This document shows, piece after piece, positions 43,920 through 48,425 of a stretch of 64,000 nt of DNA (position 1 is the stretch's first letter; every line of letters starts with the position of its first letter). The position numbers and the translations under genes are program-made. This DNA is from an uncultured Olleya sp. (GTDB lineage: Bacteria > Bacteroidota > Bacteroidia > Flavobacteriales > Flavobacteriaceae): contig CANNFD010000002.1 in NCBI GenBank assembly GCA_947503885.1, forward strand, positions 248,001-312,000, given 5' to 3'. The notes under the pieces were generated by a model that saw only the letters and a program-made list of their open reading frames with translations, did not search any database and had not been told where the DNA came from.

Positions 43920-45275
43920 ATGTTTAAAAAAATACTTTTTTTATTAGCAATACTGCCAAGTGTTATCCTGGCACAAAACACAATAAAAGGAACATTTACA
44001 CCAGCAGAACAATTTAAGTTTGCCTTTTTATATCAAGTTACTGCAGACACCTCTATTTTTGTTGATAATGCTGATATTGCAGAGGATGGCAGCTTTGTTT
44101 TTAATCTTAAAAACACGCAAGCACCAGGGACTTACCGTATAGTTTATGCACAGCCACAAGACCAGTATAACTTCGATTTTTTATATAACAACGAAGACAT
44201 AGAGCTAACTTTTGACTTAGACAAAGGTTTAGAGTTTTCAACTTCAGAAGAAAATAAATTATGGACCTCTTATAACAAAAGCATGTCTATGATTGGTCAA
44301 AGTTTAAATGCATTTTATACTGCTGGAGGTGACAACGAAGACGATTTTAAAAACATAATTAATATTCTTAAAACTACTCAAACAGAGTTTGAAAAAGCTG
44401 CAGAAGGTAAGTTAGTATTAAACTTTATAACTGCTAGTCAACCATATATTCCAGAACACTTAATTGACGCTAAGACATTTACAGAAAACGCTAAAAACGC
44501 TTATTTTAAGCATATTAATTTTGGTAATCCTGTGCTTCAAAATTCAAACTTTTTAATTGAAGCAACTTTAAATTATGTATTCAATTTTATTGATAGTGAA
44601 GGCCAAAACAAATCTTACATTAACAACATAAACACTGTAGTAAAAGCAATAGGCAATAATCCAAAGGTTAAAAAAATATTGTTAGAGATTTTATGGAATC
44701 AATTTGCTATTGAAGAGGTTGAGCCAGTTGCCAACCATATTGCAAACGCACATTTATTAGCTTTAGCTAAAGCTGAAAATGATACAGAATTAATTAGCCA
44801 GTTAACCTATTTTTTAAACGCTTCTGTTGGTAATACTGGTAAAGACTTTGAAATAGTAATTTATGACAAAGAAGGCGAAGCTACTGTTACTAACCTATAT
44901 GATTTAAAAGACGCTAACAATTATTTAATCGCTTTCTGGAGCACAACATGCTCGCATTGTTTAGATGAAATTCCTGCGTTGCACAAATACGCAGAAACGT
45001 TAGAAAAAGGACAATTAAAAGTAATTGCAATTGCATTAGACGAAGACCGTTACAGATGGAAAAACATGACTTATGATTTTCCTGAGTTTTACCACGTGTT
45101 TGGAGAAGGTAAATGGGATAATGAAATAGGAAATAATTACAATGTAAAATCTACACCAAGTTATTTTGTGCTAGATAAAGACAAAAAAATAATTAAAAAG
45201 CCTTACGATTTTGAAACTTTTAAAGCCTATTTTAAAACGCTTCCTGCACCAAAAAAAGAAATTAAAAAAGAATAA
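43920..45275 (+). CDS. TlpA-like thioredoxin-fold lipid/periplasmic protein with DUF4369-type N-terminal region
   Basis: A 451-residue exported protein. Signal peptide (1-18, 'ILFLLAILPSVILAQ'); residues 19-120 resemble the beta-rich DUF4369 domain seen before thioredoxin folds in Bacteroidetes; the C-terminal third is a TlpA/AhpC-type thioredoxin with 'FWSTTCSHCLDEIPAL' (CxxC near 344-347) and cis-Pro 'VKSTPSYFVLDKD'. It probably reduces or isomerises disulfides in the periplasm. Partner unknown. A terminator follows. Confidence 0.88.
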   Translation: MFKKILFLLAILPSVILAQNTIKGTFTPAEQFKFAFLYQVTADTSIFVDNADIAEDGSFVFNLKNTQAPGTYRIVYAQPQDQYNFDFLYNNEDIELTFDLDKGLEFSTSEENKLWTSYNKSMSMIGQSLNAFYTAGGDNEDDFKNIINILKTTQTEFEKAAEGKLVLNFITASQPYIPEHLIDAKTFTENAKNAYFKHINFGNPVLQNSNFLIEATLNYVFNFIDSEGQNKSYINNINTVVKAIGNNPKVKKILLEILWNQFAIEEVEPVANHIANAHLLALAKAENDTELISQLTYFLNASVGNTGKDFEIVIYDKEGEATVTNLYDLKDANNYLIAFWSTTCSHCLDEIPALHKYAETLEKGQLKVIAIALDEDRYRWKNMTYDFPEFYHVFGEGKWDNEIGNNYNVKSTPSYFVLDKDKKIIKKPYDFETFKAYFKTLPAPKKEIKKE

Positions 45276-45296
45276 TTTATATTATTAATATAGACC

Positions 45297-45327
45297 ATAA
45301 AGCTTCGAGAAATCGAAGCTTTTTTTA
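45297..45327 (+). terminator. Terminator after the TlpA-like gene
   Basis: AAAGCTTCGA - GAAA - TCGAAGCTTTTTTTAT. Confidence 0.88.
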
Positions 45328-45430
45328 TGTGTTATATAAACGTTTCAATCAATTAGACATTGCTATTTAAACAAGTTAAAAAAGACTGTAAACACAATAA
45401 AAAAGGAGGCTTAACCCAAAATACACATCC

Positions 45431-45468
45431 AAAAATCATATATTAGTTGTTATATAACACGCTAGCAC
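45431..45468 (+). repeat. Direct repeat left of the esterase gene
   Basis: AAAAATCATATATTAGTTG... through ...ACGCTAGCAC; matches 46333-46369 with a few mismatches and one 1-nt gap, about 902 bp apart. It includes the palindrome GTTATATAAC. Confidence 0.5.
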
Positions 45469-45491
45469 TAATTTAATAAAAAATAATAATC

Positions 45492-46304
45492 ATGAAAAAA
45501 ATAGTCTTATATCTCATACTTATAGTTTTTACATTTAGTTGCAAAAACAAAACAATTACATACAATGACCCAATTCCAGAACACGATAGTTTAATTATTG
45601 CTTCTAAATATGTAAATGAAGACCGAGTTATCAATATTTGGACACCACCAAACTATAAACAAACTACAGATAGTCTACCTGTATTATATATGCCTGACGG
45701 AGGAATAAAAGAAGATTTTCCGCATATAGCAAATACATTAAAAAAATTGTTAACCGAAAATAAAATACCACCTTTTATCTTAGTCGGTATTGAAAATACT
45801 GAAAGAGGAAGAGATTTATCAGGTTTTTCTGAAGCTGAATATGACAAGCAATTTTGTCCAGTTACTGATGGAGCTAAAGACTTTAGAGCATTTATTTATG
45901 AAGAGTTAATACCGCAGGTAAATAAAAAATATAGAACCAAAAATAAAAAAGGAATCATCGGAGAATCCCTTGCTGGACTTTTTGTTATGGAAACATTTTT
46001 TATTAAACCAGAAACATTTGATTTTTACATCGCTATGGATCCCTCACTTTGGTGGAATGACCAATATTTAATGAAAAATGCAGATTCATTAATAGCTAAT
46101 TTTCCTAATAAAAATATTAAAATATGGTTTGCAGGTTCTGATGCAAAAGACATCTCACAAACAACAAGAAATATTGAAAAGACCTTCAAAAAGAATAATA
46201 ATAAAAACCTGACTTGGAAATATTCTGACGAACCAAACCAAAAGCATAATACAATATTTAGAGCTACAAAAGAAAAAGCATTGATTTGGACATTAAACGA
46301 ATAA
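45492..46304 (+). CDS. Alpha/beta hydrolase, esterase (IroE/Fes-like) lipoprotein
   Basis: A 270-residue lipoprotein: signal 'VLYLILIVFTFSC' with a lipobox Cys at about 17. The body is an esterase-D type alpha/beta hydrolase: 'LPVLYMPDGGIKED' (oxyanion side), nucleophile elbow 'GIIGESLAGLFV' (GxSxxG with Ser), and a late His in 'QKHNTIFR'. It may cleave siderophore or sugar esters in the envelope. It is bracketed by imperfect direct repeats, suggesting a cassette-like insertion. Confidence 0.82.
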   Translation: MKKIVLYLILIVFTFSCKNKTITYNDPIPEHDSLIIASKYVNEDRVINIWTPPNYKQTTDSLPVLYMPDGGIKEDFPHIANTLKKLLTENKIPPFILVGIENTERGRDLSGFSEAEYDKQFCPVTDGAKDFRAFIYEELIPQVNKKYRTKNKKGIIGESLAGLFVMETFFIKPETFDFYIAMDPSLWWNDQYLMKNADSLIANFPNKNIKIWFAGSDAKDISQTTRNIEKTFKKNNNKNLTWKYSDEPNQKHNTIFRATKEKALIWTLNE

Positions 46305-46332
46305 AAAGTAATCTTATCCAGAAAACAAAATT

Positions 46333-46369
46333 AAAAAGCATGTATAGTTGTTTTGTAATACGCTACCAC
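46333..46369 (+). repeat. Direct repeat right of the esterase gene
   Basis: AAAAAGCATGTATAGTTG... through ...ACGCTACCAC; partner of 45431-45468 (21 of the last 25 bases identical). Confidence 0.5.
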
Positions 46370-46395
46370 ATATATGAAAAAACCTAAACTCAAGA

Positions 46396-46882
46396 ATGAC
46401 AAATCTTAAAACACCTCTTGGACTATTTGCCTTTTCATATTTGATTTACGGAATTGTGATGAATATTCGAATGTTCATAGAACAAATGTGGCCTACATAT
46501 TTATTCATCATTTCAATGATTATTGGATTGATTCCCGTAACTTTTTTTTAGTTTATATGCTAATAATAAATAGTAATAGCGAATACTATTCTAATGTTCA
46601 AAACTCAATTAAAGAGAATACAACATATTTAAAAACGGAATTTGGATTGACGAAAAAGACACACTAATTGGAATTGAAATTAAAAATCGGAAATGAATAA
46701 TGTTTTATAAAGGAATGGAAACTGACTCAAGCGATATTTATGACTACAAGGTGACTAATAAATTGTCCGAATATGCAAATACTAAATTAAGACCAACTGA
46801 GTTTTTAATATTGACCAATAACTCGGATACTCTGAAATATGAAATACTTGAATATAATCAAGAGTTATTAAGCCTAATGTAA
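46396..46882 (+). pseudogene. Decayed gene(s) with stop and frame changes
   Basis: ATG 46396 opens 51 codons of membrane-type sequence ('LGLFAFSYLIYGIVMNIRMF') ending at a TAG after a T run. Further on, 'NGIWIDEKDTLIGIEIKNRK' runs into TGA and continues in the same frame as 'IMFYKGMETDSSDIYDYK' (the track's 46700 ORF) to 46882. If TGA were TGG (Trp) the sequence would read through naturally, and an earlier frame change is also needed. The three pieces look like remains of one or two small genes. No family recognised. Confidence 0.5.
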
Positions 46883-47058
46883 TTTCCGAGAGGAAATATA
46901 TTAACTTATAAAATAAAATCGTCTAGTAACACCTTGAATAATTAATTACTTTTTTAGCCTACTTACCAAAACTCACACGGACATAAAATATAGTTTTGAC
47001 TAACTAACTTTATCGTATCAACACGATACTTATTTAAAGTCATTACAAAAACAAAATC

Positions 47059-47418
47059 TTAAAAATGATAAAAAGCATCTTTTAAGTGTTCTATCTTAAA
47101 CTGTTTATTATCTTTTACAATTGCAATAATATCAAAACGGACTTCTACATCTAACCCATTTACGGTAACATACTCGTCCACCGCTTTTACTAAACGTTGG
47201 ATTTGTTTTGGTTTTACAAAGTCTTGAGGGTTACCAAACGTAGTTGTTGATCTTGTTTTAACTTCGATAATTGCTAAAACATCTTCTTTTTGTGCTATTA
47301 TATCTACCTCAGCCTTATCAAACCTGTAGTTACGTTCAATAATTTCGTAGTTATTTTCAACTAGAAAATTAACTGCTAGTTGTTCGCCTTTTTTACCAAG
47401 TTCGTTATGGTTAGTCAT
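47059..47418 (-). CDS. YraN family (UPF0102) endonuclease-like protein
   Basis: A 119-residue protein with a minimal PD-(D/E)xK-type fold: 'NELGKKGEQLAVNFLVEN' with the first Glu, 'DKAEVDIIAQKEDVLAIIEVKTR' with the D-E-K core. The family is widespread and thought to act in DNA processing or recombination, without a firm role. Its start overlaps the stop of the LD-carboxypeptidase gene by one base. Confidence 0.92.
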   Translation of the reverse strand: MTNHNELGKKGEQLAVNFLVENNYEIIERNYRFDKAEVDIIAQKEDVLAIIEVKTRSTTTFGNPQDFVKPKQIQRLVKAVDEYVTVNGLDVEVRFDIIAIVKDNKQFKIEHLKDAFYHF

Positions 47419-48425
47419 TATTTTTCAAAAACTACTGTCGCTTTTTCTTTTTCAACATTTAATGTTAATTGTCTACCTAAAATCAAAGCTCTGTTATCAT
47501 CTTCGTGTCCTGCTGGCATATTAAAAGCTATTGGAAAGTCGTAATCAGATAAGGCTTCTAAAACAAGTTGCTCTATGGATGTTCCCCATTTTGTAGTGTT
47601 TTTTCGCAGCTTACTCATATCTCCAACAATAACTCCTTTACAATTATCAAAATAACCCGCTCGTTTTAAACTTTGAAGCATCCTATCTATATGGTATTTA
47701 TATTCGCCAATCTCTTCAATAAATAATATTTTACCAGAGGTATCAATACTGTCTTTAGAGCCCAACATGGTGTGTAAAATAGTTAAATTTCCTCCCACTA
47801 AGACTCCTGTTGTCTTACCTTCTTTATTATAACTTGACCCTTTTAGCGTGTAGCTTAAAGGCTTACCAAAAATGGTGTTTTTAAACGTTGTTATACTGTC
47901 TTCAATATCAGACAAGTTTTCTGGCAAACTTACACCCATTATAGCATGTAGTGTTTGCACTCCTAAATTATGTATTTGATTATGTAAAGCAGTAATATCG
48001 CTATAACCGATAACCCATTTTGGCTGATTTAAAAATTTAGTATAATCTAATTTATCTAAAATTCTAACGGTACCATAACCACCACGTGCAGACCAAATTG
48101 CTTTAATTTTTGGGTCGTCCAAAGCTGACTGAAAATCTTCGCAGCGTTCTTGATCTGTACCTGCAAAATGATTGGCTTGATTAAAGACATGCTTACCAAT
48201 AACAACATGTAAGTCCCAACTTTCTAAAAGTTTTTTGGCACGATTAACTTCTTCTGTTCTGTTTTTTAAAACACCTGAAGGTGCAACAATAGCAACAGTG
48301 TCTCCTGTTTTTAAATAAGGTGGCTGTATCAATTTAGTTTCGGTTTTATTTTGCGCAAATCCTATATAATTTCCGAAGAAAAAAATAGTACAACACACAA
48401 TCAATAATAATCTATTTTTTGACAT
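47418..48425 (-). CDS. LD-carboxypeptidase (peptidase S66)
   Basis: A 335-residue enzyme that trims the terminal D-Ala from murein tetrapeptides in cell-wall recycling. '[16 protein letters not shown]' and '[14 protein letters not shown]' (nucleophile Ser in GYSD) are the S66 signatures, and '[20 protein letters not shown]' and '[10 protein letters not shown]' hold the Glu and His of the triad. An N-terminal segment '[20 protein letters not shown]' is a signal peptide, unlike cytosolic LdcA, so it acts in the periplasm. Confidence 0.92.

Follow-up and report, generated by a model that had tools for sequence, protein, structure and literature searches.

The segment from about 45344 to 47048 of the window, the 64,000-nucleotide stretch of DNA analysed here, is probably what is left of an array in a chromosomal integron system of the Flavobacteriaceae, decayed and lacking an integrase. 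This reading, which is drawn from sequence comparison, follows from a copy of attI joined to a recombinase-gene tail, from a decayed attC site, from the absence of the locus at the corresponding junction in congeners and from homologues of its esterase gene that are flanked by attC sites elsewhere. The order along the DNA would be the last codons of the recombinase, attI (the left member of a repeat pair), an esterase cassette, an attI-like copy (the right member), a decayed cassette gene and a decayed attC (Table 1). In the intact system, the gene of an XerA-like tyrosine recombinase is followed by an attI with the core YATATAACNA|GTT. Each cassette consists of one gene and an attC of ~132 nt folding on the bottom strand, and would enter at a GTT, either that of attI or that of the attC before it. 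The attI with its recombinase tail also occurs at other genomic sites, heading arrays devoid of the recombinase, and the window would hold such a head in ruins.

Table 1. Predicted features of the decayed array and of its two flanks, in positions of the window.
Feature	Position	Strand	Basis
TlpA/thioredoxin-like gene, left flank	43920..45275	+	Pfam, synteny; also left neighbour of the G006 recombinase gene
Recombinase 3′-end remnant, ~23 codon-lengths, frame broken	45346..45414	+	Alignment to the G007 recombinase 3′ end
Predicted attI copy with the left repeat of the earlier note	45439..45463	+	attI model R2, alignment to G007 and G003 attI
Lipoprotein-type esterase (PF00756), putative cassette cargo	45492..46304	+	Pfam; attC-flanked homologues
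Second, decayed attI-like copy (putative) with the right repeat	46310..46369	+	Homology to the left copy
Decayed cassette gene, short frames	46396..46882	+	ORF list, no Pfam match, weak similarity to array cassettes
Decayed attC, 5′ half clear, 3′ half degenerate	46924..47048	+	attC model R1
UPF0102 gene, right flank	47059..47418	-	Pfam; synteny in G001 and G009

The earlier note had described imperfect direct repeats on either side of a single lipoprotein esterase gene, and both parts of this description stand. The left repeat (45444-45468) and the right repeat (46345-46369) are identical at 21 of 25 positions and lie 901 bp apart, start to start. Among the 25-mer pairs in 44500-47500 theirs scores highest, with a weighted score of 30.8 against a maximum of 29.1 for the best pairs of 100 dinucleotide shuffles of this region. 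When gaps are allowed, the aligned stretch grows to ~90 bp, with a score of 33 that none of 500 shuffles reached (maximum 21.5), and of all matches to the left copy across the 64 kb of the window, the right copy ranks first (34 versus 21 for the next match). The esterase between them is intact, with 270 aa, and matches PF00756 at an E-value of 8e-22. A weaker piece that had been placed at about 45331, GTTATATAAACG, is present and adjoins the recombinase remnant, and the gene to the right of the esterase is decayed, as had been proposed: it consists of short frames to which no Pfam family and only weakly the array cassettes of relatives could be matched.

A whole-genome search for the exact 25-mer, with up to 3 mismatches, returned no copies beyond these two, and a search of 300 other genomes of the family gave no match to TTRTAAYACGCTASCAC, a sequence compatible with the right copy. 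A dispersed exact element was consequently rejected. In the earlier note, a repeat confined to this place was to count as refutation of the cassette reading. The exact 25-mer is indeed confined to it, yet diverged relatives, in the form of attI, lie at many sites in the genus.

The region 45346-45480 aligns over ~130 bp to the 3′-terminal part of the recombinase gene of G007 and the attI behind it (score 54, shuffle maximum 30.5, 0/300), and the left copy also aligns to the attI of G003. The attI model R2 recognizes the left copy with 15.3 bits (E 0.0019 over 64 kb), which is its sole match in the window. Judging by these alignments, the left repeat is a predicted attI copy plus a recombinase-gene tail, one of the marks by which membership in the flavobacterial system was assessed. 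The right copy is homologous to the left one (0/500 shuffles). Its comparison with attI alone was not significant, which weighs against the array reading: 7 of 300 shuffles equalled its score and the attI model search gave no match at this place. By its homology to the left copy, the right repeat is a putative decayed, attI-like duplicate of it.

A second mark of membership, attC, is found in decayed form at 46924-47048, where the covariance model R1 gives 32.9 bits (E 9.3e-6 over 64 kb). This site lies beyond the stretch that had been delimited as the cassette, which therefore left out the actual attC. Its folding is no better than that of shuffled sequences, and no attC remains directly behind the esterase, which counts against the reading as a relic array. 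Also against it, the R′ of the window, GCTACCA, fits the R″, TAGTAAC, at only 5 of 7 positions, and ~17% of random pairs do equally well at the outer four bases. The crossover reads GCT instead of GTT in both attI copies, a further point against, and with an unfoldable attC besides, the locus appears to be a relic and not a functional site. No Rfam family was found in the window locus or in two array loci.

The likeness to single-gene cassettes, as opposed to an insertion sequence, holds insofar as an integron-type cassette gene lies between copies of a recombination site. The repeats themselves are not attC-like: neither folds, folding having been one of the checks suggested beforehand, and the scores of the attC model on them are not significant. 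Model scores and folding being both against it, their identification as attC or as attC halves was rejected.

A comparison of presence and absence in relatives, also proposed beforehand, shows that the locus is missing from the same junction in two congeners. In G001 and G009, the TlpA-like and UPF0102 genes face each other with ~100 bp between their stops, while 1.8 kb separates them in the window. This difference is an insertion or loss polymorphism, in either direction. The two genes have different neighbours in the remaining congeners, and the UPF0102 gene was not found in the incomplete genome G006.

The window esterase has counterparts of 73-80% identity in Maribacter, Mangrovimonas, Yeosuana, Formosa and others, and is more distant from the four congener and G052 copies compared (59-63%). 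These named matches are the basis on which the system is assigned to the Flavobacteriaceae. In Mangrovimonas sp. ST2L15, the esterase gene sits exactly between two attC sites; the Maribacter gene has an attC behind it and that of the congener G006 an attC in front. These attC-flanked homologues suggest that the window esterase was carried as cassette cargo. We infer that the window stretch arose via insertion by the recombinase and then decayed. Behind the G006 esterase (L005:960-1180), a stretch that by eye resembles an attC of another subtype, GCTAAC-AATA-GCTAT ... ATAGC-CTAAAC-GTCAACA, was not picked up by R1.

Pattern matches in the window's own genome led to a family of sites of ~132 nt arranged in tandem arrays. 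The consensus built from 23 of these sites contains 13 base pairs, seven of which show changes on both sides (covariation), and bottom-strand folding of two tested intact sites gave z-scores of -3.4 and -3.8. With model R1, 24-107 attC sites were found per genome in ten genomes of the genus, and attC sites were detected in 41 of 60 relatives. The arrays thus share with integrons a make-up of attC-delimited cassettes, with bottom-strand folding of the attC. They also follow the cassette-junction rule, by which R′, the sequence that comes next to a site's crossover, complements the R″ of the cassette's own attC: this applies to 93 of 98 neighbouring sites, against a mean of 10.4 and a maximum of 19 in 1000 shuffles. 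In G001 (L113:16310-17507), four attC sites with similar scores follow one another at a constant spacing of ~355 nt, probably representing one small cassette repeated in tandem.

The array of the own genome, on contig C6, is headed by a tyrosine recombinase. Relatives of this enzyme at E<1e-40 occur in 37 of the 60 genomes, 36 of which also contain attC, a count that ignores kinship; in the complete genome G023, the recombinase adjoins the array. The protein scores 221.4 against the XerA-like NCBIfam model NF040815 (cut-off 220) and 203 against the integron integrase model, below the cut-off of 265. No canonical integron integrase (TIGR02249) exceeds the cut-off in 10 congeners, and the presence of such an enzyme within the genus was rejected on this ground. 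The alignment to the integron integrase structure 2a3v breaks, with ~43 integrase residues having no counterpart in the recombinase, and the 14 recombinases measured all have a spacing of 63-64 residues at the position of the IntI segment. The IntI-specific additional domain, one of the criteria for an integron, is thus not present. The recombinase presumably catalyses the cassette insertions. Its gene is split or interrupted by a stop codon in G003:C3, G005:C1, G034:C1, G015:C15 and others, where large arrays are still found.

The attI core, or a close variant of it, lies just 3′ of the recombinase stop in most genomes. At recombinase-linked attIs, the bases that follow complement the R″ of the first attC at 6-7 of 7 positions in 8 of 9 cases, and an attI serving as insertion point beside the integrase gene, as expected for an integron, is therefore found. 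In the own genome, attI and the first cassette together form a perfect palindrome, CATATAACTAGTTATATG (contig C6, L065:7857-7874). Additional copies, referred to here as satellite attIs, consist of attI plus the last ~4 to 25 recombinase codons without the recombinase. They occur on contigs C1 and C8 of the own genome and in large numbers in G003, G004 and G005, locally one per 1-4 kb, and in several genomes they head integrase-less arrays. The cassettes behind satellite attIs keep the junction rule in 17 of 24 cases (shuffle mean 1.7, maximum 6), suggesting that satellite attIs are used as insertion points. A conserved palindrome, ACGTAGTTNTACGTA, lies ~135-170 nt upstream of many of them (L228-L236; G003, G004, G005) and may mark either a regulator site or the border of the unit that is copied.

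We further infer that attI spreads as a unit. With attI multiplied around the genome, one recombinase could feed many array heads. A family-wide integron system of the Flavobacteriaceae, in which an XerA-like recombinase without the IntI-specific domain is accompanied by the multiplication of attI with the recombinase tail, and in which genes like this esterase become bracketed by attI copies, is likely.

The remnant in the window could also be the stump of an original integron, not a satellite, in which a full recombinase gene behind the TlpA-like gene was deleted down to its last codons. The remnant comes immediately after the TlpA-like gene and its terminator, in keeping with this proposal, and G006 offers a parallel, its recombinase gene beginning 78 bp past the TlpA-like stop and having the same neighbour as the window relic (L133). 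However, the remnant resembles the recombinase tail of G007 and G003 and not that of G006, and satellites elsewhere carry tails of like extent. The recombinase gene follows a gene for a heavy-metal-binding protein in five other congeners and in the own genome, which also argues against a stump; in other congeners, the TlpA-like gene and the recombinase are ~31-37 kb apart. A stump is rather unlikely, and the satellite remains the preferred reading of the remnant.

Two further proposals dispense with attI. In the first, each repeat would be the 3′ end of an attC and so an ordinary cassette boundary, which would agree with their position ~25-30 bp upstream of start codons and with a gapped scan of 20000 positions for attC 3′ ends, in which the left copy came 8th. 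This is nevertheless improbable, since no 5′ halves accompany the repeats, GCT stands in place of GTT, the attC-model scores and the folding described above speak against it, and the left copy runs on into the recombinase tail. In the second, the repeats would have nothing to do with recombination and would be either a promoter or operator that two neighbouring genes have in common or a fortuitous match of AT-rich sequence. A start codon does follow each repeat at ~25 bp, and the left copy contains the palindrome GTTATATAAC; chance is excluded by the shuffles and the ranking over the whole window, and a promoter would account neither for the homology to attI and to the tail of the recombinase, nor for the attC close by, nor for the esterase's past as a cassette, making this proposal very improbable as well.

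Among the known systems that come close are the chromosomal (sedentary) integrons such as the Vibrio superintegron, in which a recombinase beside attI is joined to an array of one-gene cassettes. Shared traits include the bottom-strand fold of attC with unpaired bases, the AAC...GTT outer boxes and the R′/R″ junction rule. Unlike that of IntI integrons, the flavobacterial recombinase is missing the IntI-specific segment of ~43 residues and does not reach the IntI cut-off; its gene is co-oriented with the array, attI lies behind its 3′ end, and many extra attI copies are present per genome. CALIN elements are similar in being attC-bounded cassette arrays without an integrase gene nearby, whereas many flavobacterial arrays are headed by attI and a recombinase tail, a trait surveyed in the flavobacterial arrays alone. 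The archaeal XerA (NF040815, site-specific tyrosine recombinase/integron integrase) is matched just above the cut-off and aligns through the region that holds the extra segment in IntI; in contrast to XerA, the flavobacterial recombinase has an N-terminal extension of ~100 residues and is accompanied by cassette arrays.

In the 2022 survey with IntegronFinder 2.0, a complete integron within Bacteroidetes proper was reported only from Salinibacter (PMC9024848). The integron of Salinibacter ruber M1 resembles the present system as a complete integron in Bacteroidetes as then defined; it comes from a survey with the IntI model and from outside the Flavobacteriaceae, and is set beside the present system by its description (PMC9024848). 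Bacteroidetes are absent from the attC taxonomy models (PMC8352920), and reviews name the Bacteroidota among integron carriers without detail (PMC8618304). The IntI extra domain is treated as defining and necessary (PMC9668308; PMC2426708). No description of a Flavobacteriaceae integron of the XerA-like type, or of satellite attIs, was found in the literature searched, which comprised open-licence PMC papers. By all sequence criteria tested, the flavobacterial system is integron-like; under the IntI-domain definition it is not an integron.

The recombinase, a conserved attI and attC arrays appear intact in the own genome and in most of the Flavobacteriaceae-type relatives sampled. Surveys define integrons by the IntI-specific domain and use attC models built without Bacteroidota, and a system with as many as ~100 cassette sites in one genome can consequently be missed. 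If the recombinase works, the need for the extra domain in the use of folded attC sites would not be general. Satellite attIs would be a new route by which one integrase serves many arrays.
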